Source of the DNA: Hydractinia symbiolongicarpus
Lineage: Eukaryota > Cnidaria > Hydrozoa > Anthoathecata > Hydractiniidae
Assembly (NCBI RefSeq): GCF_029227915.1
Contig: NC_079875.1
Coordinates: forward strand, 12,519,001-12,583,000
Direction: 5' to 3'
DNA: 64,000 bases
The notes under the pieces are model-generated. The model made no database searches, was not told the origin of the DNA, and saw nothing but the letters and a program-made list of their open reading frames with translations. Each line of letters opens with the position of its first letter. Position 1 is the stretch's first letter. This document shows positions 1,105-61,875 of this stretch, in pieces. The translations under genes were made by a program, and so were the position numbers.

Positions 1105-4020
1105 CTGAATAAGAAAAAAGTAGCGTAGTAAGGTAAATACAAAGAATGACAATAGATAATTATGAATTGCATTCAGCCTGTTACCACAATATGCTGCAAT
1201 TAAATAAACTTGAAGGATTCTTCGGGATATATTAAGAAAAAAAGAAAATAGAAAAATGAAATAGAACATATGCGATTAGATTCTTATTTTCACTACCCGC
1301 CTCTTTCTCGCCTTTTTTCTATTTATTGCCATCTCTATTTATACTTATATTTATATTTTTCCGATTCTATTTTTTATTTTTTATTTACCTTTAATGTGAC
1401 ATATAGGTTGACATATATGGTTTTATTAAAACTAGAGTACATCAGAAAGACTTTCCAATAAAATTTCAACGTTTTCCACTAGTGCAACCACTGAGAATGG
1501 ATTTCAAATGCTCTTTTAATGTTTATTGTTTTGGTCATGTATACACAACGTTTGTGGAAAAAAATGAATAACTTACCGTTCATTTTCTAAAGTCCTTACA
1601 GTCGTGGCAGCAGTCGTATCACAAGGATGGTAACCCTTTTCTGTGTTGAGAGGGATCTCGTCTAAAAGTGAGATAAATAACGATAACGCTCAATGCAAAG
1701 AAACATAGCGGAAGCCTTAACAGCTCATCAGAATAAATCTCCTAAATCGTCAAAAGGAAATGGTCTTTACAGTATACTAATCAGTGTCAAGGTCTACACA
1801 GTAAACATTACGGCCACACTAATTCCGAAAACATTCTTATATTGACTGGTAATTGACTGGCATCACCAGAATATTTGGAATGAATTTTCTTTTTCTATTG
1901 CACATCTGTGTAAAAAATTTCGGATTAACTTTTTCTTAATTAATTTTACTAAACTTAACTAGACCACAAGTGTAGCCAGTCCGACAAAACGTGCTTATGT
2001 TCTTTATCAATCCAGCATTTTCACATTTAAAATTTTCAAATCGATATGTGTTTTGGGAGTGCGTATAGATGCTAAAGTATTTTGCATATTCATAATCCGC
2101 TGAACATTTTTTTGTGCAAATATAACTCCTATAACTCCATAAAATTTTAACTGAACGTCTAATAAATTTTACGAGGAATAAGCTATACAGTGCATCAATG
2201 TAATGTTGAAGTCGCCTTAAAAATGAAATACATTCTACTGAAGGTGGAGTGTATTTCAAAACGCTCAAAGTTGGATTCTAAATTGACAAAGTAAAAGCAG
2301 CAGCAAGAAAAGGTACCTTGTAAACTTTCCATAATACGCAATAAATCAATTGCTAGTCGTGAGAAGTCGAAACATTTTTCAGATCCTTCAATCAGATTTT
2401 TACAAGGAGACGATGCGCCCGAAATGACAGTAGGTGACTTAACTTCATCAATGGAAATTTTTAATTTCCCTAGTGGGTTTCTTGATAACTTCTCCATATT
2501 TAGTTGTTGGAGGTGTGAATTAAATGTTGCAATACTGGGCGGTAAGGAAGAAAGATTTCGTAGTTTTCTTTCAACTTCCACCTTTTCAGCAATCAGTTCG
2601 AAATTGGACTTTAATTTAAAAGCCTTTATTTCATCTGTAAATTCTTTCATTTTAGTCCTATCTATGCAGCCAACACGCATTATCTCGGCTTTGAATTTTT
2701 CTGATTTTTCATCAAAATCCTTCAACATATTCTTTTCTTCTTCATTTAAAATGCTAAGATATCTTTCTATGCATTTCAGTTTTCTCATTTCCAGTTCTTG
2801 AACAAATACCTTTCTCTCACATTCGAGCTTCATCAAAGTTTTATGATATATTTCTGATAATTTTTCTAATTCAACTATTGTATCTTCAAATGTTTGAAAA
2901 TGCTTGTTTAATTCAATGCCATATTCAGTTATGCTTTTGGTGTTGTGACCTTTGTGTTCCCTGTGGACGCAATACACACACACAAACTGACTATCACATT
3001 CGATGCACACTTGCTTAGCCAGGGAGTTATGTTGACTGCATAAGGGATGAATTTCTTGTAACTTTTCGTTAAAACTAACAGTAACGAATGATTTGTTTTC
3101 ACAAGAATGTATTTTTTGGCATTTCTCACAGATCTTCGCAGCACAAATTCTGCAGAAGTAACGAACAGGCTGTTTGCAATTCTCAGTTTGTCTGCATAGG
3201 GCATTGCCTTTTCCATTTTCTTCTCTAGAAAATAATTTAGCGCATACACAAATGTAACCTAAGTATGACTCTCTTTTCTCTCATTACTAAAACAATTTGT
3301 CGTCTATTGTTGTTATATATTAGAAAAAATAACATTTGGTGCAAGGGATGGGTTTTAAAGGGAAGGGGGAATAATTTTCTTATTTTGAAAAAAACATTCT
3401 TAAAAAAATTTATTGCGTGGGCTAAGTTCACTTCTGCATCCCCCTGATCTCACGGCACTGGACTTAATTTACTTAAATATCACGGCATTATATGTTTCCG
3501 AACCAATTAAAAGGTTAGAAGAGTGGACAAAAAGCTAGTCTTACAACTGCTTAAAATGTGTAGAGTTTATCAGATAACAAATAAAAAACCAAAGTATAAA
3601 ACTGGAAATGTTAACGAGGATGTTTGAACAATAAAACTTTATTGTGTCCAAAAAATCAACATGGCGACTGCTGTTTTTTTATGATGGTAATAAGCTGACA
3701 AAATAGTGTAGAAACATCCAAATTTATTTAAAAAAAAAAACAATTTGCAAAAATAATACTTACACATTATTTAAAATGTCAGCAAGACAATAAGAAGTAG
3801 GTAAGTATGATGTCGTTTCGTGTTCATTTATTATTGTTTTGTTTGAACATCTAAGTGGGCAATTTAGTTCAGCACTTCCATCTTCATTAAATGACAAAAT
3901 GTCGTCTAAACAGCCGTGACAGTACGTGTGTCCACAGTTAAGATGTTTAGGCGTATTGTAAGTATCTAAGCAAATCTTGCATTCCAGCATCAGACTGATC
4001 CTGTCTGGCGACAACGCCAT
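840..4020 (-). CDS. TRIM-like RING/B-box/coiled-coil/SH2 gene, copy 1
   Basis: A minus-strand gene read from splice signals and phase. Exon 1 is 4020-3764 (RING; start MALSP, the start shared by the family, although an in-frame ATG lies further upstream at 4089). Exon 2 is 3224-2317 (two B-box-like zinc motifs, then a long charged coiled coil). Exon 3 is 2277-2232 (46 bp, the same length as in copy 3). Exon 5 is 1661-1577 and the SH2 exon is 1104-840. The RING shows CKICLDTY, CGHTYC and CPLRC. The product would be a cytoplasmic E3 ubiquitin ligase with a phosphotyrosine-binding module. One gap remains: the exon equivalent to copy-3 exon 4 was not found between 2231 and 1662, and joining exon 3 directly to exon 5 is out of phase. 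The gene is therefore either intact with an unseen short exon or recently damaged. Confidence 0.75.
1577..1661 (-). CDS. Linker exon before the SH2 exon, copy 1
   Basis: An 85-bp exon bounded by TTTTAG and GTAAGT. The peptide contains HPCDTTAATTVRTLENE, matching HPTCDTEASTTVRNLEDE in copy 3 (33302-33374). It is 12 bp longer, which keeps the frame. It ends two bases into a codon that is completed by the first base of the SH2 exon, giving R-WYFG. Conservation of this otherwise featureless linker in both copies is the main evidence that SH2 belongs to the TRIM transcript and not to a neighbouring gene. Confidence 0.72.
2317..3224 (-). CDS. B-box/coiled-coil exon, copy 1
   Basis: A 908-bp exon, 12 bp shorter than the 920-bp exons of copies 2 and 3, and in frame. 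It starts after TTTCTAG with EENGKGNALCRQTENC and contains two zinc motifs. The first runs over CRQTENC, CRIC and CEKC. The second is the B-box2 type over HPLCSQHNS, CIECD, CVYCVHREHKGH. A long Lys/Glu-rich heptad region follows (LEKLSEIYHKTLMKLECERK onward), the usual TRIM dimerisation coil. It ends at a GTACC donor. Confidence 0.85.
3764..4020 (-). CDS. RING-finger exon, copy 1
   Basis: 257 bp from the ATG to a GTAAGT donor, exactly the length of the RING exons at 23547-23803 and 28852-29108. The zinc ligands are C-x2-C, C-x-H-x2-C-x2-C and a final C-x3-C (CPLRC), where most RINGs have C-x2-C. A RING of this kind recruits an E2 ubiquitin-conjugating enzyme. The sequence is open, with no stop. 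Confidence 0.87.
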
Positions 4021-5399: not shown

Positions 5400-5560
5400 G
5401 TATTTTCACTGCAACCCATATAAATGCCTTGACATATATTTTCAACAATCATTGTGCGTTCCATTTTCTGATAATTGGGTTTATAGTAAGTTTCTTAGCA
5501 AAATTTGCATTTCAGCATAGCACTCGCCATGTTCAGTGTGTGATGAAGTGACAAAGCCAT
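5400..5560 (-). pseudogene. Decayed RING exon of the TRIM-like family
   Basis: On the minus strand from an ATG at 5560 the sequence reads MALSLHHTLNMASAMLKCKFC, then a stop, then ETYYKP. Intact copies have MALSPSMISAMVECKICLETYHKP. At DNA level the match to the copy-3 exon start (28852 on) continues for about 75 bases with substitutions and small indels, and then fades through the CGHTYC region. This is a dead fourth member of the family in the same orientation as copy 1. No B-box or SH2 exon follows it. Confidence 0.72.
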
Positions 5561-10306: not shown

Positions 10307-11142
10307 ATGCCAGAGACTATAAAAGTGTGAATCTGTCCTTTCTACTTAGCGCTCAGCATGGGAATAGAAATAAATATAATTATTCTACTACATTTAACAG
10401 TAACACAGAAGAAGAAAAGGGTGAAAAGTGAAAGCTAGAAAGAGAATAGCGGAAAAGTTGGACTCTCCACACAGGACTCGTTAATCAGGACCCACTGTTT
10501 GGGACCCACTAGTCGGGACTTTAATATCTATGACATGTAAAATATAGGCTGCACAATTTATTTTTTGCATTGTTACCAAGAAATGCCGTCTGAATTCGAA
10601 TCAAACTGCATATAAACAATCTAATTCAGCGGGAAGGTAAATTAACGGACACTAAATGGTATTTTAAAATTATCGACCATATTTAAATTGTTTTGTGCAG
10701 AGAATTATTGAAAAAACAACGGTGTTTGTTGTTGTTTGGCGAAGAAAATGATGTTTAACCGATATTTCAAGCCATGTCCTCCACAGTTCACCCTAGCATT
10801 GATAGATGTATACTCTACATCATTTCTTGATCAGCTTAGATTTCTTTTAATTTTATTCTTTGCAAATTTTTGGTATTTATAAAGAGCTTTCTCTCCAAAT
10901 CGGCGAGTTAACTCAGGTCCCAAGTCCTGCTTTTATCATATGACGCTTGAAGTTGAAATCATCACAACCATATTCGAAATTGGTTATTTTTGCCTTTTGA
11001 AACTGTCCCTATTAACAATAAAATTAAAAGGAACTGCTACGAAGAGCTAACAATGAAAACATCGTGTCAAATGTTGCCCCGGGCTTTAAAAAGATAGCCT
11101 TTAAAAAATGCTTGTCTATAAAGTTTATTTTTTCTTTTACAG

Positions 11143-14100
11143 CTTCCTCTAATGGAGTTGATATATATTTATCACTGGATGGTACAGACTCTCCTCGTTG
11201 TGAAAGCAAAACAACAATGTGTCAGGCACTGTTATGCAATTAACATGACCATTGTAGATGATGTCGTTGTGCATCTAGATGGAGGCAAGCAACAACAACC
11301 ATACTCCTACAATCAAACAGCGCCAATTCCATTTAACGGAAAATTGGTCTTGTTAATTTTGGATGATATACCCATTCGTCATAAGTCAGTTGTCAGTGGA
11401 AAATTTTTCACATTTCCTAATGTACCATTGTTTATCAGTGTTGAGAATATTGACTTCCAAGACATTTTTTTTATTCAATACAATGGAAATTCGGATATTT
11501 CAAAGAATAAAAGCAGCATATTTACATCAACCAAAGATTTGATGAATTTCAAATAAGGGTTAATATTACAAAGAAAATCCTTAACCTGTTTAATTGCACA
11601 TTTAAGTTTGGCGAATATTTCGTTGAAACATCTCTCATTTCAGCTTCCAACGTTCCATTAGACATTACTGTAAATGTTAGCAATGTTAATGTCTTAAATG
11701 GACAAGTATTTTTTATTTACTTAGATACAGTCAGTCAAGTTAATTTAACTATTAAGCATAGTTGGTTGGAATGTAAAGTCAGCTGTATCGGTATTTATGT
11801 GCAAAACGCAACTGTGACTTTGAAAAACATTACATTTTTAGGAAAATCATTTCGCGAAGATATTTATCTATTGCATTTTTTTTGGTGCAGAATCAATAAA
11901 AATGGATGTTGTTTCTTTTCCAAAGTATCGTTTAAATTATCGCGTAGAATCAAAAACAATTAAACTGAATTGGTGTACCAATTTCACCTTATCTGATGTG
12001 CACTCTGATTTAAATGCAGTAAACATTATCGCAAATTATGTCCAAAATATACATTTAAAAAATTGTCATTTTAACGGACTTCAAAAAAAAGATTTGCATT
12101 TCATTAGTATTCTGCAGCAACTTACAATTCATGACTGTACATTTACAAAACCGGAAACCCAATCAATTTACGTGATAGCCACAAGCAATGTTCAAATCCA
12201 TAATACTACAATACAGAATTGTGATTCAAATCCCTTGCAACTTGAAAACATACAGAAAGTTGACATTTCCAATTCTTTTTTTAAACGCTGTCCAAGGGGA
12301 CTGACATTGATGAATATAGCAGATACAAACCTCGACGGATGTCATTTCATTGAAAATAAGGAACTTAATTATGACTGTGGTGCTATTAACGGTATAGGCA
12401 GTGGAATGCAAATTCGCAACTGCAGATTTACTAAAAACAAAGCAAGAAAAGGTGGTACAATATCAGCTACTTTTACAAAGAACATAAATATAATATCTTC
12501 AATCTTCCATGAAAATACTTCTCTGTCAGCAGGGACGTTTTATTTTAGTGGGGATACCGCTGTATCGGTTTCATTTACCGACACAAGTATTACATCTCCA
12601 ATTGAAAATGTACTTTCTTATTCAACAGTAATGGAGAGCATTGGTGTATTGACAAAATTGTTTAATTTTGTCAACATTACAATCGAGAAAGCCGTAATTC
12701 CAATCGATTGTTTTTTAGAAGATGGAGTAAATCCCCCTGGTCCAAATTTTCGTTACACGTGTGCAGTTGGTAGCAATTTACTACCATTAAAATATTTCAT
12801 GATATTTGGTTGTGAAAATTGTCCTCCGGGATCATACAGTTTGGATCGAGGATTTGTTGTTACTAATTACGAAAAAACAATCGTCCATACCGCTAAATGC
12901 AAAAACTGTCCTTTTGGTGGAATTTGCGAGAAAGGCAATATTAAAAGCCGTGGAAGGTTCTGGGGTTACCATAGCGGAACTGATGTTAAGTTTATACCAT
13001 GTCCTGGAGGTTATTTCTGCGATTCTCTCAATCTATGTCATAAAATCGGTATGTGTGGGAATTGTAGAAAGAATTACTACGTTGATTATTTCTTCAATCA
13101 GTACCTTCACCAAAGCTAATGTAAACATTTAAAAGCGTTTTGGTCAGTTTTTTTTATTTACGCCTTAACCTACTTTGTAGTGTTTGCATATATCGATGAT
13201 GTAATTACAAAAATTAAGAGATTATGTAGCAGTAGAAATCATCAATCATATGCACGAAGGCAATCTTTGACTGAAACTTTGCTCCCAGAATCCTCATCTA
13301 CCACGGCTAAAGAACATAGTAACGAGGAATATAAAGAGGAAGGAAGTTCTTCCTCTGCAGTAGGTTACCTTAAAATCCTTATTAACTTCTACCAACTTAA
13401 TATGCTGATCCGTGTTGCTCTACCAAACCAAAGTCATGGTTATACGACCTCCATTCGAGTAGTAAAGCAACTTTTCGAGACATACTTTACCTTGGAAGTT
13501 TTTGCTAGTAATTTAACAAAAACGTTTTGTCTGATGAAGGAGGGAGGAGTTGTCTCGAAACTATTCATAAAAATGTTCTAATTGTCGCTGCACCATTTCT
13601 CATCGCACTGTTCTTCATGCTATGACGACAACAGCCAATGGAAAGTAAAAAAAGTTTTATGTGTCGCTGTAAGCATGTTTTGTTACAGGTGGCTTTATTT
13701 GGGTTCACAAATATATCCCTGTTCGAACTCACTATGCTCAATTGTATTGATATCAACGGAACACATCGTTTGTACGTGAATGGCAACATTCTTTGTTACA
13801 CCAGTTGGCAATATGTTGTGTGGTTATTGTTGTTTCTGTGGGTAATACCGTTCGCACCAGGACTGTATTACGGCACTAAGTTACTAAGATCGAACAAGAT
13901 TGGGGTGAACTTATTCTTAGGAGGTTTGCTATGCCCACCACTAACGTTGTTTCAGTACCTATATTATTATTATTACAATCTCCACCACTCGACTCAGTCC
14001 ACAAATGATGAAGTCAATGATGATGTCGATTATGGTAACAACTGCAATGATGATAAGACTAAGATTCTCTCCATATTGCAAGATTCGTTTAAGTTAAAAA

Positions 14101-14504
14101 AAGGTGAAGCAGTACTATGGAATCCGGTGATTATAGTCCGTCGATTGATCATTACAGCTCTCGTAACATACCTGATCAATCCCATCGCACGTCTTTTTTG
14201 TGTGTTTCCCTTTATGCTGGTGTTCTTATTCCACCATCGAAATACATTGCCTTATCGATCACAAGTGCTCAATCGTTTGGAAACGGTCTGTTTCTTTGCC
14301 TTGTGCATCTTGGTTTCGGGTAATTCGTTCAGGGCATTTGTTTTCGTTTATGGTGTACCATTGCAGTATCCTATTAACATCATCGATCAAGCGTTTAATT
14401 GGTTCGAATATGTGATGCTGAGCCTTCCGCTTATTATTTTGGTGTTTTACATTATAATTAAAATAACTTATAAGATTATAACTTTTATACGACGTAAATT
14501 TTAA
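11143..14504 (+). pseudogene. Beta-helix / Cys-rich / multi-transmembrane protein gene, frameshifted
   Basis: After a TTTTACAG acceptor the sequence encodes a long protein with breaks. It opens with SSNGVDIYLSLDGTDSPRC, then runs through a region of short repeats rich in Asn, Cys and beta-branched residues (INDC/NCxF-type ladders), typical of right-handed beta-helix folds. A Cys-rich block follows (CENCPPGSYSLD, CKNCPFGGICEKG, CPGGYFC, CGNC), then several hydrophobic helices (WSVFFIYALTYFVVFAYI; WQYVVWLLLFLWVIPF; LIITALVTYL; YVMLSLPLIILVFYIII) ending at 14504. The reading frame changes near 11234, 11545, 11880 (a run of eight T), 13100-13150 (another run of eight T) and 13570. Large intron-poor receptors of this plan are known to me as uncharacterised cnidarian proteins; the role is unknown. 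Either a pseudogene or an assembly with homopolymer errors. Confidence 0.68.
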
Positions 14505-23546: not shown

Positions 23547-23803
23547 ATGGATTTGTCACCAACCATGATCAGTACTATGTTGGAATGCAAGATCTGCTTA
23601 GAGACTTACCACAAGCCCAAACAACTTAATTGTGGACATACGTACTGTCAAGACTGTTTAGATGGCATTTTGATATTTAAAGAAAATGGAAGTGCTGAAC
23701 TGGTTTGTCCATTGAGATGTACAAAGAAGACTATAATAACAAAACTTGAGACAACATCTTCTTTAGCGACGACTTTTTGTTTGACCGACATTCTGGATAA
23801 GAT
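23547..23803 (+). CDS. RING-finger exon, copy 2
   Basis: 257 bp to a GTAAGT donor. Ligand spacing is the same as in copies 1 and 3, including the C-x3-C end. It has diverged more than those two in the tail (TKKTIITKLETTSSLATTFC). Confidence 0.86.
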
Positions 23804-26048
23804 GTAAGTTGTAGTCGTTGTCAATCATATTAACCTCATCTCTGGTTTTGGTTTGTAACGCCCACAACATTTTCAAACTAAACTCCTGTACAAAACTTTA
23901 ACGTTGACGTCATTGCGTTAGATAAGATTGGCGAAAACATTTTTTCACCAAATAGACTTAAAAAGTGCAATGCGCTTTTAAGCTTGAGACAAAGTAACTT
24001 AGAAACATTCAGAAATAACCGACGTCGTCAGGAATAAACTAAAACCCATTTTGTGAAGTTTGATCAATCAACCGTTTTGAAACAGACGGTTTAATGATGT
24101 AATCAAAAAAAATGTAAACATAGATATCTCCGTAACAGTTCATCAAAAGCACGCAATCTTATACAATTTCTTGCTCAGCTGTTAAAGTTTGACACAAAAA
24201 AAACAATCTATAACCAATTTTCCAAAAATATATTTGTCAGTTCACTGCTGATGACAGCAGAATTCAAATTCCGGACCTTTCTTTAATCGTTCATTCGCCT
24301 ATGTGGATTTTTCCACAAGTTTATCAACTAGTTGTACAAGTATCATATTTGCCATTCCAATATGTAATTTGAATATGGCTGCTTTAACCGGAGCGAAACA
24401 TAAAAGATCTCCAGCATAAAAAAATTTGTTCAACAAAGCCTTGGAGCAAGCCGGCTCATTGAGCGCTGCTTTTCACCCCACTGTGCCACAACGCAATCAC
24501 TCTTGATATGCTCTGATTATGAGTTATATGCAAACGGATTTCTGCTTATGGTTGTGAGCTTAATATTTACACCTCTTTTGAAAAATTGATGTCCTCGATT
24601 GAGGGTATTCCCGTATAGTTATGCAATTCATAATTTTTGCTGATGTCATCATGTATGGTCAGTTTAGAAAAGACGTTTATGTGTAGGATTCCTTGCTTAA
24701 AAGTTTTGCAGTAATTTCACAAAGCAGTTTCTGCAAAGTACATCAAAATTCCGATTTTGTAAAAGCGCTCTGGAAATAAGGCTGAATTATAGCTATAAAC
24801 AGGTATAAAAAAAGAAGGTCTTGTAGGTTTATTGAGTAATATTGTAGTAAAATTGGTGTTCGTCCACTCGTCCATTGGTGAACGCTAAACGAAAAAGTTT
24901 TTTTCAAAGACAGCAATTATGGCATGTAGATGAAAGAAAATTTAACGAAGTTAAACATTTGAAATAATAGTAGTACATTATTTTTAGGTCAAATTGTGGA
25001 AAAGGTATTAAGCTGTGCCAGGAGGCTGAAAATTGCAAACAGCCTATCTGTATTTCCTGCATATCATGTAGTGCAAAGATGTGTGAGAAATGTCAACGCT
25101 TGCATTCATGTGAAAACAAATCTTATGCTGTAGTAACATTTGATGAAAAGATCCAAGAGGTCCAACCCTTTTGCAAAAAGCACAGTTCTCTAGCTAAAAA
25201 TGTCTGCATCGAATGTGAAGAGAAGTTCACTTGTGTTTTTTGTATAAACAGAGAACACAAAAACCATACAAAGAAAACAGTTGAAGAAATGGGTTTGGAA
25301 ATAAAGAAGTGGTTCCAGTCCTTTGTGACATCATTTGAGGACAGAAAGGTTTTGTTGGAATCCTTATCAGGAAAGTATAATGAAGCTTTGATGAACCTTA
25401 AGAGTCAGAGAGAATTGTTTGTTCATGAATTAGAAGTAAGAAAATTAAAACGCATGGAGGAGTATCTGCAGCTGTTAAAGGCAGAGGAAAAGAAATTGCT
25501 GAAGGACTTTGATGAAAAAACAGAAGAATTCAAAGCAAAAGTGATTAGCGGTGGTTACTCAGAAAATGCTAAAATGAAAAAATTTTCTAGTTACATAGAG
25601 CTCCTTAACTCGAAGTCTCATTTTGAACTAGTTGCCGAAAAGAAAGAAATTAAAAAAAACATTAGTGATCTATCTTCTTTACCTGAAACGTTTCCAAATT
25701 TAAACTTACATCTTCCTCAAATAAATGATAACGAATTACTTAAAAATCCATTGGGTGAATTGAAAATTACTTTTTATCCTGCTTACATTGGAGACGTAAG
25801 TTCATCTGAATGGTCTGCATGCAACAACACCATTGGGGAAACTGAAGGAAATTTTGACTATCCACAACTAACAAAGGATTTGATGAACCTTGTAAAAAGT
25901 CTGAAAGGTACGTTGGCTTGCCCAGTTTTTCATAATTGAGCATTGAACAAAATATTATTATGCGTTTCTGATTGCTGAAATAATTTTTTGTAGGATATGA
26001 AAAGTCTCAAGGAAGTACGAGTCTTGTCAATGCAGACACAGTGAAAAG
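23547..26048 (+). CDS. TRIM-like RING/B-box/coiled-coil gene, copy 2
   Basis: Exon 1 is 23547-23803 (start MDLSPTMIS; an in-frame ATG lies eight codons upstream). Exon 2 is 24988-25907 and exon 3 is 25994-26048 (55 bp, nine longer than in copies 1 and 3). Phases join without stops: exon 1 ends two bases into a codon, exon 2 ends one base in, exon 3 two bases in. Zinc ligands are CKICLETY, CGHTYC and CPLRC for the RING; CQEAENC, CISC, CEKC and FCKKHSS, CIECE, CVFCINREHKNH for the B-boxes. A coiled coil follows. No linker or SH2 exons like those of copies 1 and 3 were found downstream; an ankyrin segment comes instead at 26947. Likely a ubiquitin ligase; its C-terminus is unresolved. Confidence 0.78.
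24302..24331 (+). mobile_element. Helitron-like 3' terminus inside copy-2 intron 1
   Basis: The stem TGTGG (24302-24306) with CCACA (24313-24317) is followed after ten bases by CTAG-T (24328-24332). This is the spacing described for Helitron 3' ends. The loop ATTTTT is shared with the hairpins at 7746 and 15434. No other part of an element was found. Confidence 0.45.
24988..25907 (+). CDS. B-box/coiled-coil exon, copy 2
   Basis: 920 bp between TTTTTAG and a GTACG donor, the same length as in copy 3. It encodes two zinc-binding motifs, then about 150 residues rich in Lys, Glu and Leu that would form a coiled coil, then a less ordered tail with LKNPLGELKITF. That last block is shared with copy 1 (LSRNPLGKLKISI) and copy 3 (LPNNPLGELKVFI), so it is a conserved family motif. 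Confidence 0.86.
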
Positions 26049-26946: not shown

Positions 26947-27268
26947 AAATTGTGAAAATCATTCTCGATGGTGATGTCGAAATGTTGAAATCGATTATAT
27001 CCAGCGATCCAAATATTGCAAAGATGAGAGATGATGATGGAGAAACGCTGCTAATGATAGCAACAAGGAATACCATCGATGGTACAGGTTTTGATTGATG
27101 CTGGAAGTGATGTACATGCTGTTAATAGAACTAACTTGAATGCATATGAAATTAGTGCATTTCTAGATTATTCAGACGTTTTTTAATATGCTGACAGAAC
27201 ACGACAGCACGGGTTGCAAACACGTACGCGACATCAGTCTTTTAAAGTTAAAGATGGCATTTTCTTAA
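26947..27268 (+). pseudogene. Ankyrin-repeat segment with a frameshift
   Basis: After TTCTTCAG the frame reads EIVKIILDGDVEMLKSIIS...DDDGETLLMIATRN, one ankyrin-like repeat. It then continues in another frame as SMVQVLIDAGSDVHAVNRTN and AYEISAFLDYSDVF...MLTEH. The switch occurs near 27075-27090. The segment lies 0.9 kb after the last seen exon of copy 2 on the same strand, so it could be that gene's damaged C-terminus or a separate relic. Confidence 0.6.
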
Positions 27269-28851: not shown

Positions 28852-29108
28852 ATGGCTTTGTCACCATCCATGATCAGTGCTATGGTGGAATGCAAGATTT
28901 GCTTAGAGACTTACCACAAGCCCAAACATCTTAACTGTGGACATACGTACTGTCAAGACTGTTTAGACGACATGTTGTCATTTAATGAAGATGGAAGTGC
29001 AGAACTGAATTGTCCACTTAGGTGTCCAAACAAAACGATAATAAATGAGCATGATACAACATCATCCTTGGCTAACTCTTATTGCCTTTCTGAAATTTTA
29101 GATACAGT
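28852..29108 (+). CDS. RING-finger exon, copy 3
   Basis: 257 bp, ATG to GTAAGT donor, with start MALSPSMIS. Spacing is C-x2-C-x11-C-x-H-x2-C-x2-C-x16-C-x3-C. It is closest to the copy-1 exon: both share LSFNEDGSAELNCPLRC and the NKTIINEH run. Confidence 0.88.
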
Positions 29109-32100
29109 GTAAGTAATGATTTCTTTTTCATCTTACTGTTTTCATGTAAGAGTTATGTATGGACACCTTGCTTCTTATACCTAAACTTGTTTTTTTGACG
29201 CTGGCAAGCAATAAATAAGACGTGTACAAATTTAGAAAGGAATCAAAGGAAATATGGTTTGCATCCTGTGCGTTTTAAATAAGTAAATATTTTCTAAAAT
29301 TATATACTAAAATTAATTTTATTTTTTTAAAGCTGATTTTAAAAAAGGGAATATTACAAACTATGACTTTTTTAGCTCTGTTTAATGCAACAACCGAACG
29401 GCAAATTAATCTGTAGTTTATAAGAGACGTTGTGTGAAAAATAGCGCACTATCTTTCCATTATAAGAATTATTGTGATTTGTTGTTTTGTTAGATCAAAA
29501 AGTGGAACAAGTAATGGTCTATGTCAACAAACCGAGAATTGTAAACAGCCTATCTGTTATTCTTGCAGTACTTGTGGTACAAAGATCTGTGAGAAATGCC
29601 AACATATGCATTCATGTGAAAACAAAGCATATACTACTGTACGTTTTAACGGAAAGACAGGACAACTCCAACCATTATGCAGTCAACATAATTCGCTGGC
29701 TAAACGAGTTTGCATCCAATGTGACAATAAATTTGTGTGTGTGTTTTGCGTTCACAGGGAACACAAAAATCATAGACTGAAAAGTGTAACTGAATTTGGC
29801 ATGGAAGCGAAGAATTGGTTCCAATCATTTATTACGTCATTTGAAAACACAAGAAAGGACTCTGAAAGATTATCCAAAATATACCATGAAACCTTGATGA
29901 AGCTCGAGAGGGAAAGGGAAATATTTGCACAGGAATTAAAAATGAGAAAATTAAAATGTATAGAAAGGTATCTTACTATTTTGAATGCTGAGGAGGAACG
30001 TTTCTTAAAAGAATTTGATGATAAAAGAGAAATGTTTAGAACAGAAATAATCAACGTTAACTGCATGGATCACACTAGCATGAAAGAATATAGGGATTAC
30101 ATAAATGCGTTTAATTTAAAATCCAACTTCGAGCTTATTGCTGAAAAAGTGGAAATTGAAAAAACACTTCGAAATCTCACTTCTTTATCAGCCAGTATGC
30201 CAATATTCAAATCACATCTCCGCCAAATTAATGACCAAGAGTTACCAAACAATCCGCTTGGGGAATTAAAAGTTTTTATTGATAAAGTTGAAACAGATAG
30301 TCTCGTTCTTGGCACTAGTTCTGCTTGCCAAAATTTGATTAAGGGATCTGAAAAGCTGACTAACTTTTCTCAATTAGCTATTAAACTATCGTACATTGTG
30401 GAAAGTATAAATGGTAGGTTTCCCGTTATGAGTGCTACCTCTGATTCATTGATTCAAAATTTAACATTAAGTCGTGTGTTTGTTAACGCTTCTAATTTTT
30501 AGGTAACAGAAATGTTACAAATTTTGTTGCTGAAAACAAAACTAAAAGGTTTGGTTATTATATTATTATTTTTGATGGTTAGTTAACGTGTTTGAACACT
30601 CTTTTAAAATAATACATCGCCAATGGTGTAGCTCTCTACGAAGAGCTTTGCTGAAAATTGTATTTTGAAATACATTGTTTCTTCTGCATTACTGGTACAC
30701 TTAATATCGAGTTAGCATAGGAAACGATGTATCAAAATGATGTAATGTCGTCACTACGATCATAAGTGACATTTATCAATGACTCATTTTCATATTTGAT
30801 CAACTATATACACCAGACACAACATTTACTGGGATTTCTCATAAATAAATTACAAATATTTCACGAATTGGCAAAAAAAGTTTAAGGATTATATTTTAAG
30901 ACATCGTGTGCTTCTTAGTTTTACTTCTTATTACCTACAGCTTTTAATCTAGTCGTGTTTTTTTAAAGTGTAATTCGCAAGGGCTTTGAAAAACGCAGAC
31001 TAGTTTTAAATCCAGCCTTATTTCATGTGAAATCTTGTCATCACAATTGGTTTAATAAATTTTCATTTTAGTGACGCCACGCCTACAAATGCAGAACCTG
31101 AGACTTACTCGGATGCAGGTAAAAGATCCAGGGTTTTTATTCTATAGTCATCTCAAAAACCAAACGTGCTTGAGGGGGAAACTCCCTCAGGATTTCTTTT
31201 CTTGCAATATTTAAAGCATTTGAAAATAAATTAAATCAGTTGATAAGATTGTATCGTGAGATTCAAAAATACCCATATTGGGCAAGCCAATCAATTACCA
31301 TGGTTACTGTCCAAGATAATGAAAAGCCCTAAAAATTTACCTTCCGCTGGCCATAAAATCTGAAATTTAACAGAGAGTTAGAACTTGAGATTCTAAGAAA
31401 TGATTAACACGTCTTTCTGTGATATGACGAGAAAGAATAGTCGCAAGTTGTGTACTTCCGAAAATAGCTTTTAAGTTTGGCGGATTTTAAATTTACAATA
31501 TGTCTGACTGAAAAGCGTCGTTACATTGAGATTATACTACCACTATTCTTGAAGGTCATGTCATAGTACTCATTACCTAATCAATAGAAGTGAAGTTTTC
31601 GAGTTATCATGATTAGGAACGTAGAAATGCAATCCCAAGAAAAACGCAAATCAACATTTTAAAGATATTACTTCCGATTGAACGACTTGTTACGCCTAAA
31701 TTTGACTACCGTTGAAACTTTGACCTAAGATTCTAAGTCTTAAGCCTGCTAAGCTGACAAGTAAACTCTGCTAAACTGACGAGTAAAATCCGACAATTAA
31801 TCCCTGACGAGTAAACCCGACTAGCAAAATCAGACAATAAATCACCGACGAGTAAGCTCCGACTAGTAAACTCCGACAAGTAAACATCGACGAGTAAGCC
31901 TCGATTAGTAAACTCCGACAAGTAATCCCTGACGAATAAACCGGAATGATTAAACCCCGACAAGTAAACAACGACGAATAAACTCCGGCAAGTAAACAGT
32001 GATGAGTAGACCCAGACTAGTAAACTCCGCCAAGTAAACCACGACGAGTAAACCCGAATGATTAAACCCCGACAAGTAAACCCCAACAAGTAAACCCCGA

Positions 32101-35100
32101 CGAGTAAACTCCGACAAGTAAACCCCGACGAGTAAATTTCGAATGATTAAACCCCGAAAAGTAATGTTCCAATTAAGTTCTGGTTTACTCTATAAATCAT
32201 CAAGCTCTCCTTAATTTCTGAAAAAAAATTCGTGAGGTCTGATGTGACGATACTAAAATTATTAAAGAAAGCTAAACCGCAGAGGAAAAGACGTTCTTTG
32301 ACGGCAAATAACTGACCACTTGTAACAAACTTACCAGTCAGAGTTGACTGGTGTAACCTGAAAACGACCACCTGAGTGAATATTTTTTAAACAGGCATTA
32401 TGTCAACATATCTTGGACATTTGAAACCGAAAGAAATGATATTTTACCCTTTGGTGTTAATGTTAACCGTTGCATTAATTGTTTTTGGCGTCACTTCAAA
32501 AAAACTCAAAGTTTAGTGGCGTTTACTGTACCTTTAATACTTTTATTGCTGTTGAATGCGGCCATAACATTGTTTTTACGCCATTAAATCGTGTATAGTA
32601 AATTTATAGATAGATGTATTGAAACGTTTCAAGATTTGTTAGGTGTTTTGTTAGGCTTTTGTTAGGTAAAAAAGAATCCGGTGTATATATTTTTTGCTAC
32701 TTTTGGAAACTTTGACTTTGCAACTACGCACTAGACTAGTCAACTCCGTTTATTTTACGGCCTGCTGTCGCAAATTCGGGTTTTTCTCACCTGTTTGTTT
32801 TTCATCAAATTGAATTTCAGGTCCGTGTTCAAAAGGCTTTGCTTTCAAATGCGTTATGTCAATTTAACAGAAGTGTAATGCCACGTATTTTGAAAAATCT
32901 AACCGACATTTTAAAGCTAGGGCTTTCGACATCTGGGATTTTTACCTATGATTGCTATGCTTAATAAGAGCTGCCGTCAAAAAACATATTTTTTTTCTCC
33001 GGTTCAACTTCCTTCGATGATTTAATTGTCTTCCTGATGACGGTCTCAAAAACGACCAAAAATTTCAAATAAAAGTTATGACCAAGTCGGTATTTTATTT
33101 TCTGTTGTTTCGTTAATCTATCAATTCAAGAAATCTTCTATAGATTTCATATTGCTTACAAGCATTCTCAGTACAAAGAACTTTTAGCAGGCATTTTAGA
33201 CAGATAAGATACATCTATTATTAATACAGAGATTTTAATTTTTCTATAAGAAACATTGTTTTTGTCTGTTACTATTGACGACCATTCTTTCTTTATGCCA
33301 GATAACAAAAGGAGGAATCACCCTACTTGTGACACTGAAGCTTCTACTACTGTTAGGAATTTAGAAGATGAACCGTGAGTATATAACAGTGTTTCAAACT
33401 TGTATTTTTAATACTGCGCGCAGAAGCAGTTGTTCTTTTTATCTTCATTGCAGATGCTATTGCTTTAGTTTTAGTTTTGTCCTTGTTGTTGTTATTGTTG
33501 TTGTTTTTGTTATTGTTATTGTTGATTTTGATGGTGTTATTGTTGCCTTATGATCAAGTTATATCTAGTCAAGTTATATCTGATCAAGTCATATCTGGTC
33601 AAGTTATATCTGGTCATGTTATATCTGGTCATGTTATATCTGGTCATGTTATATCTGGTCAAGTTATATCTGGTCAAATGATATCTGGTCAAGTCAAACC
33701 TTGTTAAGTTATATCTGGTCAAGTTATATTGGGTCAAGTCATATCTAGCCAAGTTATATCTGGTCAACTTATATGGTCAACTTATATCTGGCCATGTTAT
33801 ATCTGGCAAAGTTATGTCTGGTCAAGTTATGTCTGCTTAAACTTTTACGTATGATTCGCTTTTATCAAAAATGTAGATCTTGATAACAAAGCTAAATGCT
33901 TTAAATCTTATCTGTATCGCAATAATACAGAATCCTGAGCATCCTGACTTGGAAGTAATTGTGCTCCAGTTAAACATAACACAGAAAATTAATTTATTAT
34001 TATTATCTGGAGCAATATATTTTGCATGACGTGATAATTACATGTGTTTAACAGTACAATGGTCAATGCTTCATCAGATAAAATACATATATCTTGCAGT
34101 GGGCGAAAGCTACTTTTCTTTTTAAGTTGGTCATACTCAGCAGGAACATAGCAATCACACCTAATAGCACTTTCATTAAATTTAGCAGTCAAAAAACATC
34201 AAGGACGTTATTCTGCTTAGGGCTATATTTAGTTGACCATTGTTAAATGAACATTGCTTCATTAAATGAAATCTAATGTCAAAATGTTGCCGCGTTAAAT
34301 ATTAAACTGTGTGAATAGTACATGCCCAAGATAACATTAAAGGAAACTGTCTACGCAGAAGTACAGATGATGTTTCTTGGTTAACTCTGTATCTAATTAT
34401 CAAATTAAATCAAATCAAATGATTATCAAATTCTACATATATTCTAAATACCATTGTGTTGTCTATATGTAACATATTCTTCAATGTCCGTCTAGGTTTG
34501 ACCCCTCCGCTCAAAAGAAAACATGTAGGCTACCACGTATTTGATATTCAACATATAATGCATGGTATATAACCGTATCAAGAGGCCAATCTCTTTGAAA
34601 AAAATATTTACATGGTATCGAAAAAGTAATACTGCATTCAAGTTCAAGAATTTAAATTGCTCAAAGTATGTCAAATTGATTATGTCTTCATGGAATAGAG
34701 TTCGGCCATTTATTTTTGCAATTATTAGACCAGATCCAAACTCACCGTATGCCAACGCAACCTAATTTCCTGAAAAAATTCAGAGGGGAAAGTTGTTTAT
34801 CCTTTGTTCCACAACTTCTGAAAGAATAAATTTAAAAGGCAGGCGTTTCTTTAACAGAATTCATGATTTCAAGGTTTTATCAGCACCAATAAAAGATTTG
34901 ACGGGTTTACAGTGATACGCTGATAATTATTATAATCAAAGGGCACAGTTTTATGTCACGATCAACTTTTTCACCAAATTCGCTAGTTGGGAAAATAATG
35001 ATGCGTTAACTCTTAACAAAAATTGATCAGTTATCAAAGACGTTGGTCTCTCGTTTCCTCCTAGGGTGTACTGATATCTGTTGATTGTAAAATGTCAAAC

Positions 35101-36377
35101 AACATTATGTTGTTTATCACCGTTAATAATAATTTGGATTGGTAACGTCTATGTCATATTTATTTGTAGTAGAGAAATCTACAAGTCTTTATGGTGACAG
35201 CAATCACAAGTGAATACTGGACCATCAGTTTTCAAATCCACAAGTTCTTGCCCCATTCCCACATTTGTTTCTGTAGCTCTCATGCTTTCTCTGAAGCATG
35301 GTTTGATGTTCAATCAATCATCATGCGTTGTTGTTTATCGCGTTTTTGCTTTAAAAATGTTCTTTTCTCTGAGAATTATTTTTTATAAATACTACACTTC
35401 CGTCGTAACAATAATTCAGGCTCCTGACTGATTCTCTTTTAATCCTATATTCCATTTAATAAAAGGAAAGAGGTTTCAAATGTTTCAAAACAGTACTTAC
35501 TGCATGGATATCAGAAGAAGAAGAATGTGTATTTTGTGTATTCTTTAACATTCCACATATTTTTTTCTATCTAGCTGGTACTTTGGTTGTATCACTCGGG
35601 ATGAAAGTATTCGCTATCTTAAACATCCCGAAAACAAATCTGGGGCTTTCTTAATTCGCAAAAGTGAAAATCCATCCAGTGGCCAATTGTACGTATTATC
35701 CATGTTGAAAGGGAACTTTGTGCAACATTTTAGTATCAAAAGAAAGTTCGTCCTTTCAAAAATTCAGGAATGTAATTCGTTAAACGAACTGCTACATCAT
35801 TGCAAAAGTGACTGGCCCCTTGGAGAGCCATGCATAAAAGTAAGTATGAAGAATTAGTCTGGTAGTCTTTTGCTTCTTCACGTTTTATCAAGCACTTTTT
35901 TTTATCTGTTTTCATTAACGCAATGCAAGAGGCTTCGACTGAGACTTAAAACATTTTCGTTGCAGGGATTGACGCAAGTGTTGAAATTCCTTTTTTTTCA
36001 AATTCTATCCTTTTCTTCTGAGTTATGCTATTGCTTAGCAGACACTTATTTTATTTATTCTGTAGTACAAGACCCAGGAATAAAATTGGTAGTCACATAT
36101 AGCTATATGACCTAACAATGTCTCGTTTCGAAACAAAATTTGTGGATTTAGAAGTGATTGCCAACTTGCATGTTTAAAACTCCACAAAAACGATTTAAAA
36201 TTGAAATGAAATTATCCAAAATTAATTATTAAAGATTCAGGAAGAACTTTTTTGTCTCTGCGAAAAAATTCGTCACTTCTTTCTGTAAAAGGTTTCTGTG
36301 AAAAGTCATTTTAAACCACATTACATAATTTACTTTTAGAATCCTAAGTCATCACTAATTGGGAAATTCAAAACGCT
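28852..36377 (+). CDS. TRIM-like RING/B-box/coiled-coil/SH2 gene, copy 3 (most complete)
   Basis: Exons by splice signal and phase: 28852-29108, 29494-30413, 30503-30548, 31072-31118, 33302-33374, 35575-35839 and probably 36340-36377. All joins keep one open frame of at least 548 residues. The RING ligands are C14, C17, C29, H31, C34, C37, C54 and C58. Two B-box motifs follow, then a coiled coil, an acidic, Thr/Ser-rich linker (TPTNAEPETYSDAG, then TEASTTVRNLEDE) and an SH2 domain from about residue 449, with the phosphotyrosine-binding Arg near 476. The linker-SH2 junction reads DEP-WYFG. The expected role is ubiquitination of tyrosine-phosphorylated partners in the cytoplasm. No tyrosine-kinase motifs were seen downstream. 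The true C-terminus is not identified. Introns 4 and 5 hold minisatellites. Confidence 0.8.
29494..30413 (+). CDS. B-box/coiled-coil exon, copy 3
   Basis: 920 bp between TTGTTAG and a GTAGGT donor. It opens SKSGTSNGLCQQTENCKQ. Zinc motifs: C..C, CSTCGTKICEKC and PLCSQHNS, CIQCD, CVFCVHREHKNH. The coiled coil runs over roughly residues 190-300 (RLSKIYHETLMKLEREREIF and onward). NPLGELKVFI closes the ordered part. Confidence 0.88.
31745..32165 (+). repeat. Minisatellite, unit about 15-16 bp, in copy-3 intron 4
   Basis: Many variants of CGACAAGTAAACCC and CGACGAGTAAACTC in tandem for about 420 bases. Every unit keeps GTAA or TAAAC. The minus-strand open frames of repeated FTCRSLLVGVYSS type are a consequence of the unit length, not a gene. 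Confidence 0.85.
33302..33374 (+). CDS. Linker exon before SH2, copy 3
   Basis: 73 bp from TATGCCAG to a GTGAGT donor. It encodes DNKRRNHPTCDTEASTTVRN and LEDE plus the start of a Pro codon. That codon is completed by the first base of the SH2 exon 2.2 kb downstream. The homologous copy-1 exon (1577-1661) shows the same relation to its SH2 exon. Confidence 0.72.
33545..33838 (+). repeat. Minisatellite, 15-bp unit GTTATATCTGGTCAA, in copy-3 intron 5
   Basis: About nineteen near-identical units, with CAA/CAT variants at the unit end. It is preceded at 33470-33545 by a TTG/TTA-rich microsatellite. The period is a multiple of three, so frames stay open; the apparent ORFs are artefacts. Confidence 0.9.
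35575..35839 (+). CDS. SH2-domain exon of TRIM-SH2 copy 3
   Basis: 265 bp from TTTTTTTCTATCTAG to GTAAGT. It encodes one leading base, then WYFGCITRDES, GAFLIRKSENP, VLSMLKGNFVQHFSIK and NSLNELLHHCKSDWPLGEPC. The alphaA2 Arg, betaB5 Arg and betaD4 His are all present, so phosphotyrosine binding should be intact. It is nearly identical to 840-1104 on the other strand, pointing to recent duplication or conversion. Confidence 0.9.
36340..36377 (+). CDS. Possible short exon after SH2, copy 3
   Basis: After TACTTTTAG and before GTAAGT there are 38 open bases encoding NPKSSLIGKFKTL. The phase follows correctly from the SH2 exon. The peptide has no recognisable domain and no counterpart found in copy 1. 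Supported by splice signals only. Confidence 0.4.
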
Positions 36378-37152: not shown

Positions 37153-37290
37153 GGCTCTAATTGGGTCTGCGTAGATCAAAATGAGCATTAAATACTCTAG
37201 GACTCTCCATCTACGCCATGGCCCCTCCTGGAAATAATAGACAGGGTATATCCCTCGATATTTGTGAGGCTAGCCATGTAAAATATGCAC
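37153..37290 (+). mobile_element. 5'-truncated SINE, 3' half
   Basis: Matches 62278-62418 with about two differences over 138 bases (shared GGCTCTAATTGGGTCTGCGT through GCTAGCCATGTAAAATATGC). It lacks the tRNA-like head. Its ATCT tail is continuous with the tetranucleotide array that follows. Confidence 0.85.
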
Positions 37291-37940
<650 letters not shown>

Positions 37941-38219
37941 TGTTCGTATGTTGACAACATTATACACATTTTCCGAATTGCATGTTTTTTATAATTTTAT
38001 AATTTTGATGTATCGACTTTAGGATCATATTCAGCATCAGTAAATTGGTGTGTGTATATAAATTTTTAACTTAATCCGGCATGTAAAATGCTATTTTGGT
38101 GGAATTAATGTTACAGTTAAAGTCTTCTTCATTTTTGATTTGTACTTATAAGCTTCTTCTGAAACCCTGTTGTAACAGGTTGTTTTCTTGTAGTATGAAT
38201 CTGAAGATTTCACATTTTA

Positions 38220-58150: not shown

Positions 58151-61100
58151 ATGTCAAAGACAGTAAGTAATTCGAAAACATGTTTGCCTACTATAGAAGC
58201 AACCACCGTGATTAAAATTTAAAATTGTCAAACACTTTAAAACTAACTTACAAGTGTCGTTTCTGAATTTTCTTTTACATTCATTACAGCAATGCTAGAA
58301 GTCGTGTCAGGATTAACGATTCACTTAGTGATGAATTTAGTGTAAATGTTGGTGTACATCAGTGTTCTGTACTAAGTCCTTTGTTGTTTATTCTAGTCTT
58401 AGAACACTGTCGATGGAGTTCAGAACAGGTTGCCCATGGGAGTTATTGTATGCAGATGATTTGGTTCTCATAGCAGAGTCGATGGAAGAATTAGTTGAAA
58501 AGTTTGAGAAGTGGAAGAAAGGACTAGAAGAGAAAGGGCTGAAGGTAAACACAGCAAAGTCTAAAGTCATGATAAGTAGCATTGCAGCCAAGTGTGACCT
58601 TGTAGTTGGAAAGTGGCCTTGTGGAGTTTGCAGGAAAGGGGTTGGTAGTAACTCAATTTTTTGTCAGACTTGCAAGCATTGGGTACATAAGAAGTGCAGT
58701 AGTATTAGTGGAAGGTTAAGAGCTGGCATACAGTTTGTATGCAAGCGTTGCAAAGGTGAGATTATAGAGAATGAAGTATTTTCAGCTTTAATGATGTACA
58801 ACAGTGGCTCGTTAGAGATAGTTAAGAACTTCTGTTACTTAGGTGATATGTTGGGCAGTGAAGGGGGTGTTGGAAGAAGTGTTACTTGCAGGATAGGTTC
58901 TGCTTGGAAAAAGTTTAGAGAGTTACTTCCTTTGTTGACTAGCAGAGTCCTGTCAATTGAGGTAAAAGGTAGGTTGTATGAGGCCTGTGTAAGAAGTGTT
59001 ATGTTGTATGGTAGTGAGACATGGGCAGTAAAGCAGGAAGATCTTGACCGTTTAGAAAGGAATGATATGAGAATGGTTAGGTGGATGTGTAATGCCAGTC
59101 TGAGAGACAGAAAGAGTTCAGATGAGCTAAGAAGCAGGCTAAGTCTCTGTAGAATTAAAGATGTTATCCAGATAAGAAGATTGAATTGGCTGGGGCACTT
59201 GGAAAGAATGGAGGAGGATAATTGGGTAAGAAAGTGTAGAGACTTGATAGTTCCTGGGGCAAAGCCCAGAGGCAGACCGAGAAAGACTTGGAAGGAGGTT
59301 ATAAGGACAGACTTGATAGAGAGGAAGTTGAGTTTAGATCTAACACAGTCTAGATCAGATTGGAAGAGGGTCATTAATATACCCCGTCCAACCCATGCTA
59401 GCATGGAAAACGGACGTTAAGCCGAGAATGATGATGATGATGATTCATTAGGCTAAAAAATCGATCAAAAAGTGGACTGAGGAAGACCTGGCAAGTGCGT
59501 TATCTGAGGTCGAAAACGGAATCTCGTCTATCCGAGCAACAGCTAAAAAATACGGAGTAAACGAAGCCACAATTCGCCTAAGAATGAGAAATAAAAAGGA
59601 AAATAAACAATTTGTACGGTCTGGCCGAAAACCCACCCTTACTGAAGCAACTGAATCAGAATTAGCTGAAGTAATCCGCGTCCTATGCTGCCTCGGATTT
59701 AGTCCTACACGAGACCAAGTCAAAAATCTTGTCAAAGAATATGTGGAGGCAAGAAAAATGAAAACCCCTTTCGCTGAAAACCGCCCTGGGAAGGAATGGC
59801 TAAGATTGTTTATGGAAAGAAACAACCTTTTCCTAAAAAAGGCAACAATGAGCTGCAGTGCGCGTAAGGCCATGACAGCAAATCCTTTCGTTGTGCATGA
59901 CTTTTACGACATGCTTGAAAAAATCGTTGAAGAAAAAAAATTTACACCCAACCAAATCTGGAACTGTGACGAATCTGGATTTCCAACAGATCCGAAAAGG
60001 TGCAAAGTGGTCAGCAGAAGTGGCGAAGTCGCATATCGAGTAACACCAGGTGCTGGTCGGGAAAATACAACAACCGTGAACGCAGCTGGACAAGCATTAC
60101 CACCACTTGTTGTTTTCCCAGGAAAAAATCATCAGGAGTCTTGGTTCCACCTGAAAGTAAGTCCCAGTAAATACAATTCTTAATTGTCACCCAATCTTCT
60201 GCTCCCCTTTCCCTCCTACACTATTTTTTATGTATCCGCTGTATAAAACATTATTTGGATCTTGTTAGGTATGCCAGGTACACTGTATGGTTGCTCAGAT
60301 AATGGTTGGATGACCACTGATGTGTTTGGCGAATGGTTTAAACACTTTTGCAGAGTAGTAACAGATCGGCCACTTTTGCTTCTCTTTGACGGCCATTTGT
60401 CGCATGTGTCTGCAAGCCTTATCTTAAAAGCTATGGAGGAAGATGTGACAATCATGAAATTTCCACCGCATGTGACAGATATTTTACAACCGTTAGATGT
60501 AGCATGTTTTGGTCCCCTGAAGAGAGAATGGGAACGTGTCTTAAATGAATGGTGTGTTTCTTACGGTGGTAAGCGTCCTCTTCGAAAAGCTGACTTTGTG
60601 GAGAAACTTGGACAGTGTTGGCAAACCGCACTTACTGAAGATAACATAAAAGCAGGATTTAGACGAACAGGTATTAAGAATACATATTTTATTTTACAAA
60701 AACGTCATTAAGTGAAACTGCTTCTCCTCTTGTGAAATGTGGAAAAGTACATTCAACTTGTTTTTAATCTAGGTATATTTCCGATCGACAGAACGAAGTA
60801 CCCGGAGAAAAGATTTGACCCACGGTTACTTAAAAGATATAGAAGATGGTGCGAAATGGGAAAACCAGAGGACGTTATGGAAGAACTTGCTCGCGCTTTA
60901 AATACGCCGAAAAAAATAAAAGAGCCAACGAATAAAAATGCCGCGACAACGCCAACGCAATCAATCGACACCACACAATCGCCGCTTCTTGCTAACGCTT
61001 CTTCAGCATCCTTTATTGATGCTCCTTCAACTGCAAGCACCAATCAATCGATGCCAATACTTCCTGCATTTGATAATCACTGTTGCGAAGTATCGAAGTT

Positions 61101-61374
61101 AATTGGGCCTAAGCCTTTGCCCTACCCTGGAAAGGTTTGGGTGCCCAAATGGGTACTGGATGATCCTCCATCAACATTTGAAGAAAAGCTGCTATCTTCA
61201 ATTAAGGGTCCAGTTGAGAAGACACAGCCAGTTCGCCGAAAAGTTGATTGGAAAACAAAAGTGATGTCCACCAATGATTATTTGCAAAAGTTGGTCGAGA
61301 AAAAAGAAACTAAAAAACCAACCCTGAAGCGTCGAAAGATCGAAGAAAAGGATAAAGAGGATAGTGACATATAA
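58151..61374 (+). CDS. Pogo/Tigger-like DDE transposase gene
   Basis: Exon 1, 58151-58162, encodes MSKT before GTAAGT. Exon 2, 59452-60156, follows a CATTAG acceptor in the same phase: KKSIKKWTEEDLASALSEVE begins a Psq-type helix-turn-helix, a CENP-B-like DNA-binding part follows (PTRDQVKNLVKEYVE, PGKEWLRLFMERN), then the first catalytic Asp in WNCDESGF. Exon 3, 60269-60670, carries the second Asp in LLFDGHLSHVS and the third in LQPLDVACFGPLK. Exon 4, 60773-61374, is a variable tail. The exon 2/3 junction is one base out of phase at the sites I see, which hints at damage; exons 3/4 join properly. No terminal inverted repeats were found. Could be a decaying transposon or a domesticated derivative. 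Confidence 0.7.
58291..59446 (+). mobile_element. 5'-truncated non-LTR retrotransposon (RT C-terminal part)
   Basis: Encodes the end of a reverse transcriptase: VGVHQCSVLSPLLFILVLE, then after a frame change near 58402 EFRTGCPWELLYADDLVLIA with the YADD catalytic box, a thumb region, and a PHD-like Cys motif (CGVCRKG, FCQTCKHWVHKKCS, CKRCKGE). The end is VRKCRDLIVPGAKPRGRPRK and then CCATGCTAGCATGGAAAACG and a short (ATG)n tail at 59430-59445. A hairpin plus microsatellite tail is typical of such LINEs. It is inserted in intron 1 of the pogo-like gene, same strand. Dead through truncation and frameshift. Confidence 0.88.
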
Positions 61375-61875
61375 TCTGTAACCGATGAGGAGATAGTTGA
61401 GGACGAGGATGAAGATACAGATAAGGAAGAAGATTATGCTGACGAGGAAGAAGACGAAGCAAGACTTGTTAAATTATGGAAGTGGTTATCACCACCAACT
61501 CAGGAGGAAGAGATTGTTGGGAAATGGTTTGCTGTCGTCTTTAAACCCGAGTCAGCAAATGTAAAGAAAAGAACGCCAGCCGCTTCTCTTTACATTGGAA
61601 AAGCCACCACTCGATTCCTTTTAGACGCAGATGGTCCAGCATGTATTATTGAATTCGACTGTCTGAAGCCACATGTTGGGAACGGTACAATATTAGAGTC
61701 GTATACAGGAACCATGCGGGATATTTCACTTTCTAAGGTCCACGATGTAATAGCTGGTCCTTTGGAGGTGTATCCAGAGCGAGCAAACAAATGGAGTGTT
61801 CCTGGTTATCCAAGCATCGAAATGTTTTTTAATAGAGTGAAAAATATAGACAGAAAACAATTGATTATGATATGA
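61375..61875 (+). pseudogene. In-frame extension after the transposase stop
   Basis: After the TAA at 61372-61374 the same frame stays open for 166 codons: EEIVEDEDEDTDKEEDYADE, then KWLSPPTQEEEIVGKWFAVV, TPAASLYIGKATTRFL, FDCLKPHVGNG and YPSIEMFFNRVKNIDRK to TGA at 61873. The globular character suggests a C-terminal domain cut off by one nonsense change. It might be rejoined by an unseen small intron. Confidence 0.55.

Follow-up and report, generated by a model that had tools for sequence, protein, structure and literature searches.

Predicted TRIM-type genes of Hydractinia symbiolongicarpus in which exons of a Src/FRK-like kinase, including SH2, probably replace the ankyrin C-terminus

To our knowledge, few architectures exist in which a RING ligase chooses its substrates by phosphotyrosine. 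In CBL, a four-helix/EF-hand/SH2 module stands ahead of the RING; SOCS proteins couple an SH2 domain to ubiquitination via the SOCS box and a cullin complex; and the subfamilies of TRIM proteins end in MATH, COS, NHL, ARF, PHD-bromo or PRY-SPRY regions. Here we describe two paralogous genes, A and C, in a stretch of 64,000 nucleotides (nt) from the hydrozoan Hydractinia symbiolongicarpus (contig NC_079875.1, positions 12,519,001 to 12,583,000; hereafter the window, in whose numbering gene positions are given), which are predicted to share the RING and B-box N-terminus of the TRIM subfamilies and to differ from them in ending with an SH2 domain. As in CBL, a RING ligase would choose tyrosine-phosphorylated targets through an SH2-type fold, but in genes C and A this is a stand-alone Src/FRK-like SH2 placed after the RING, B-box and a helical region; the RING comes first, and neither the four-helix bundle nor the EF hand of CBL has a Pfam match in the two genes. 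The coupling of SH2 to ubiquitination is a predicted likeness to SOCS proteins as well, and the SOCS box has no Pfam match in the gene C and A frames given here, which stop short of a settled 3' end.

Published systems with related logic use other arrangements. According to passages of PMC9388098, the SH2 adaptor NCK-1 of Caenorhabditis elegans brings TRIM-21 to SRC-1-phosphorylated CED-1, and a TRIM ligase is thus led by SH2 to a Src-phosphorylated receptor, as would be the case here, but by two proteins instead of one predicted polypeptide. The Dictyostelium SH2 proteins FbxB and CblA are assumed, in passages of PMC3085826, to target other proteins for degradation; unlike genes C and A, they have F-box or CBL architecture and are amoebozoan. 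In the main text of a review of TRIM origins (PMC3503706), a word search returned SH2 and ankyrin 0 times, and our literature searches, with subscription journals outside their scope, gave no report of a TRIM-SH2 protein among the matches listed. Within the literature searched, this supports the proposal of an earlier note, made from the letters of the window, that an SH2 C-terminus is new for a TRIM-type protein.

Gene C (28852-35839, plus strand; Table 1) comprises six exons with AG/GT borders that join into one uninterrupted frame with outgoing phases of 2, 1, 2, 1, 2 and 0, which bears out the compatible phases and open frame proposed in that note for these exons. The RING is likewise confirmed (Pfam RING_UBOX, residues 14-55, E-value 9.6e-9, 35.5 bits against a cut-off of 25.2), as is the SH2 domain (residues 449-523, E-value 5.1e-13, profile positions 1-76 of 77). 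Two B-boxes had been claimed, of which Pfam sees a single stretch in genes C and A and in relatives (under the cut-off in gene C and over it in gene A); the additional first B-box is a Cys/His motif seen by eye only, as is the charged, helical-looking stretch that follows the B-box in exon 2. Six of the seven exons claimed stand, and the seventh is doubtful: it keeps the frame and ends in phase 2 without a stop, both of its 2 differences between the two near-identical genome copies change an amino acid, and a search of gene A for a counterpart, which has little power for 12 residues, came up empty. Nor did a comparison of gene A with gene C find a common exon downstream of SH2. Left unspliced, the SH2 frame would end after 5 more residues in gene C and 13 in gene A; an AATAAA lies 239 nt beyond the SH2-exon donor in gene C and is absent within 900 nt past that donor in gene A. 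The introns of gene C contain 14-nt repeats (31776-32167) and, by eye, a TATATCTGGTCAAGT-like array (33560-33840). Just after the gene stand a long ATCT array (37290-37960) and the first copy of a 146-nt repeat (37153-37298 and 62278-62423, 99% identical).

Gene A (4020-840, minus strand), a paralogue that the earlier note had missed, matches gene C in exon order and phases. Its four exons form an open frame of 505 residues with the phases of gene C at matching exons, and Pfam recovers the RING (E-value 3.5e-9, 37.0 bits against the same cut-off) and SH2 (E-value 2.2e-13) from a query that carried one surplus Gly at an exon join. Gene A yielded no counterparts of the small exons 3 and 4 of gene C, and its frame does not need them; together these two exons measure 93 nt, so omitting both leaves gene C in frame. 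Exon 2 is 59-61% identical between genes A and C, compared with at most 52% for the next relatives of gene C. Since the same order and phases recur in two such diverged paralogues, a chance adjacency of TRIM and SH2 exons is unlikely. On the same strand as gene A, 5471-5560 holds a weak remnant of a RING start with an internal stop (53%, E-value 0.006).

Both the SH2 exon and the exon before it point to a Src/FRK-like kinase as their type of source. The SH2 query gave 9 matches (13 candidates) in the searched genome (480.9 Mb, 76 contigs; the window lies on contig C1, taken here to be chromosome 1): genes C and A, near-identical copies at C1:16.1 Mb (three matches) and four loci on contig C8, one at 61% and the remaining three at 36-45%. 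The C8 locus at 61% thus holds the nearest SH2 found outside genes A and C and their copies, with an identity of 55-61% depending on method (61%, 56% and 55%). This locus (C8:29798850-29801526) reads as a Src/FRK-like kinase with an MGNC start, SH3, SH2 and kinase domains (Pfam on joined exons), in which an SH3 5' exon, an SH3 3' exon (124 nt) and an SH2 exon (295 nt) precede the kinase exons. The SH2 exon is 265 nt long in both A and C, with the border codons and phases of the kinase SH2 exon. The linker exon measures 85 nt in A and 73 nt in C, and these lengths and that of the kinase SH3 3' exon are all 1 modulo 3, with phase 1 in and phase 2 out in each case. Genes A and C thus share linker and SH2 exon boundaries and phases with the C8 kinase, which, unlike them, retains SH3 and kinase domains and has no RING.

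The linker peptide itself aligns to the kinase SH3 exon (gene A NTEKGYHPCDTTAATTVRTLENE versus kinase NGQKGYIPCNYIAAVKSLEAE), with a score of 51 for gene A that 0 of 20000 shuffles reached and a score of 30 for gene C that was reached by 13 of 20000. In both genes the linker outscored every other peptide in a scan from exon 2 to SH2 (987 peptides in gene A, 4421 in gene C). Because the linker matches the SH3 exon and the SH2 borders and phases match those of the kinase, we infer a joint capture of two adjacent kinase exons, after which the SH3 part decayed and the SH2 was retained. The threonine-rich linker of the earlier note corresponds to exon 5, and its origin is now read as a 3' SH3 exon of the kinase type that has decayed.

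The TRIM-type part belongs to an extensive family of RING/B-box-type loci that carry ankyrin C-termini; of the 66 best exon-2 matches, 65 fall on chromosome 1. Exon 2 had 115 matches in the genome; the family set was defined as the 65 C1 matches among the 66 best (E-value at most 4.4e-53), excluding one match on C3 and 49 weaker ones. Near-identical pairs and some matches with stops are counted among the 65, so the number of distinct intact genes is lower. Ankyrin matches were taken from the 80 on C1 among those listed (best 150 of 413 candidates scored), and within this set 56 of the 65 family members had one at most 10 kb downstream on the same strand, versus control counts of 9/65 upstream on the same strand and 1/65 downstream on the other strand. 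The nine members without a downstream ankyrin match comprise gene B (copy B in Table 1) in its two copies, the four loci that bear SH2 and three others. Pfam placed the B-box above its cut-off in three of five relatives, copy B included. Between exon 2 of copy B and gene C, no downstream SH2 match was found. The donor after exon 2 lies at the identical position in the 9 loci compared of 20 (among them gene C and its copy; the remaining 11 are on the other strand), and by eye a phase-1 acceptor precedes the ankyrin frame in copy B and in one ankyrin relative, L045. Since this acceptor phase equals that of the captured SH3 exon, the common exon-2 donor would suffice for a swap of the ankyrin C-terminus for the kinase exons. 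Passages of the Hydractinia genome paper (PMC10411563) describe 15 chromosomes in HSymV2.0 of this species and chromosome 1 as its most likely sex chromosome; in a word search of the text available, TRIM and ankyrin were not present.

Much of the region exists twice. Segments at C1:12.5 Mb and C1:16.1 Mb, ~3.6 Mb apart, are colinear and near-identical (99.6% over 30 kb, then mostly 96-98% with some pieces at 88-93%; mostly 96-98% around gene C), and the segment at 16.1 Mb probably stems from a recent duplication or is a haplotype that was not collapsed. The two copies of gene A are both free of stops and frame breaks, and they do not differ in their RING, linker and SH2 exons. Further pairs of similar-scoring exon-2 matches stand ~3.6 and 2.2 Mb apart.

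The predicted SH2 domain keeps the residues expected of a phosphotyrosine reader. R28, which we take to be the beta-B5 arginine, is invariant across 8 aligned SH2s, and R8 and the conserved histidine (presumably beta-D4) are present in genes C and A, in agreement with the phosphotyrosine-binding Arg and His named in the earlier note. Of the solved structures, chains of PTK6, FRK, SYK and Src scored best against the gene C SH2. A model from a single sequence was poor (predicted local distance difference test, pLDDT, 44.7) and was replaced by one from the 8-sequence alignment (pLDDT 85.3), which matches SH2 structures: its 50 best structure matches have E-values of 1.1e-6 to 1.2e-5, and the named Src and Lck entries among them reach query TM-scores (TMq) of 0.82-0.88. 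These intact motifs suggest that the SH2 of genes C and A may bind phosphotyrosine.

Taken together, we consider it very probable that A and C are single TRIM-type genes in which the usual ankyrin C-terminus has been replaced by two consecutive exons of a Src/FRK-like kinase; the joining of their exons in vivo is a prediction from borders and phases. Several points weigh against this reading, beginning with the B-box of gene C (residues 146-183), which at 19.4 bits falls under the Pfam cut-off of 24.1 that gene A passes at 25.3 bits, and with the SH3 match of its linker, which is far weaker than that of gene A. The gene C frame also reaches no stop codon through candidate exon 7, and an in-frame ATG just upstream of exon 5 would permit a separate SH2 protein. 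This last point, and the continuation of the exon-2 frame past its donor to a stop in all three window copies, are what would be expected from two adjacent genes, namely a short TRIM ending after the helical region and an SH2 protein with its own promoter, the alternative that the earlier note had raised. We nevertheless regard two genes as improbable: in gene A the frame ahead of exon 5 closes with no Met, the linker and SH2 phases are compatible with the TRIM donor in both paralogues, that donor keeps its position among the loci compared, and the linker derives from the very exon that precedes SH2 in a kinase. That the SH2 and linker stem from a kinase-type gene would also fit a local duplicate of a Src-like kinase adjoining TRIM genes by chance, which appears very improbable indeed, as tblastn of the C8 kinase exons against regions of 74 kb and 70 kb gave no kinase exon and no SH3 5' exon above chance-level matches, no kinase match lay within 0.7 Mb of C1:12.55 among the matches listed (best 138 of 646 candidates scored), and the arrangement is common to two paralogues in opposite orientation. 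With two paralogues, a kinase-derived linker, no kinase exons found in the regions searched and a common donor among the loci compared, the single gene is well supported over the adjacent pair.

A separate question, compatible with the single-gene architecture, is whether the fusion is dead or dying, its exons once joined and no working SH2 ligase remaining. The SH2 exon of the second gene C copy (C1:16.16 Mb; L014, C1:16160596-16160860) is frameshifted by a single additional base within a run of A, and the ankyrin exon of copy B is broken alike in both copies. The captured SH2 is also 10 residues shorter than the kinase SH2, with loops shortened by gaps of 2, 4 and 4, and its choice of ligands may thus be altered or lost. 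On the other side, gene A is intact in both copies, gene C is open in the window, and ratios of nonsynonymous to synonymous substitution rates (dN/dS, Nei-Gojobori method) lie below 1 throughout: for SH2, 0.22 between A and C, 0.25 between C and kinase and 0.16 between A and kinase, the kinase comparisons having a dS of 1.2-1.7 that is near saturation, and between A and C, 0.25 for RING and 0.28 for exon 2. The dS between A and C is 0.16 for SH2 versus 0.89 for exon 2. As the SH2 dS is low and some variants of the second gene C copy also occur in gene A, the SH2 exon appears to have undergone gene conversion, and the 93% SH2 identity between A and C would by itself overstate constraint. On balance we consider a dead or dying fusion unlikely, though less so than the two-gene arrangement.

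If single TRIM-type genes are indeed present, we moderately favour a mechanism in which a TRIM-type enzyme carries out SH2-directed ubiquitination of tyrosine-phosphorylated partners. The protein would dimerise via its helical region, the RING would recruit ubiquitin-loaded E2, and the SH2 would select tyrosine-phosphorylated partners and so single them out for ubiquitination. Given its kinase origin, the SH2 may at first have targeted proteins bound by the source kinase itself, which would create negative feedback. More tentatively, animals could here have assembled, independently of CBL and SOCS, a third route to phosphotyrosine-steered ubiquitination, in which a kinase SH2 is aimed at the kinase's own partners, within a TRIM array on the probable sex chromosome that exchanges C-terminal modules (ankyrin, SH2) at a common phase-1 donor; we hold this wider picture to be possible. 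If expressed, genes A and C would provide an enzyme, assembled independently, that tags tyrosine-phosphorylated proteins; within a single genome, each captured exon of this solution can be traced to a type of kinase gene as its source, and gene removal should be feasible in Hydractinia, a colonial hydroid kept in the laboratory. A TRIM array that could swap its C-terminal reader via one common intron phase would also make the evolution of TRIM specificity testable.

Table 1 Predicted exons of genes A and C and of the neighbouring copy B, in window positions.
Feature	Position	Strand	Comment
Gene A exon 1, RING	3764-4020	-	
Gene A exon 2, B-box and helical-looking region	2317-3224	-	
Gene A exon 5, SH3-derived linker	1577-1661	-	retains KGYxPC of kinase SH3
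Gene A exon 6, SH2	840-1104	-	93% identical to gene C
Copy B exon 1, RING of neighbouring TRIM relative	23547-23803	+	end by homology
Copy B exon 2, B-box and helical-looking region	24989-25907	+	start by homology
Copy B ankyrin exon remnant	26947-27200 (approximate end)	+	frame disruption, broken alike in both copies
Gene C exon 1	28852-29108	+	start codon, C3HC4 RING; donor gtaagt; phase 2 out
Gene C exon 2	29494-30413	+	Cys/His-rich B-box region, helical-looking region; phase 1 out; exon found family-wide
Gene C exon 3, small	30503-30548	+	3-nt deletion in second copy, frame preserved; no match in gene A
Gene C exon 4, small	31072-31118	+	
Gene C exon 5, linker	33302-33374	+	putative remnant of the 3' SH3 exon of a Src/FRK-like kinase; incoming phase 1, outgoing phase 2
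Gene C exon 6, SH2 domain	35575-35839	+	phase 2 in, 0 out
Candidate exon 7 of the earlier note, doubtful	36340-36377	+	no stop; no gene A counterpart found

Elsewhere in the window, 58341-61875 contains, by eye, part of a long interspersed nuclear element (LINE) reverse transcriptase with a PHD-like finger and a pogo/Tigger-like transposase (Psq match below cut-off). At 11122-14504, large plus-strand open reading frames include a hydrophobic, membrane-like one (by eye; no Pfam match) that follows a beta-helix match (Pfam E-value 8.6e-14).

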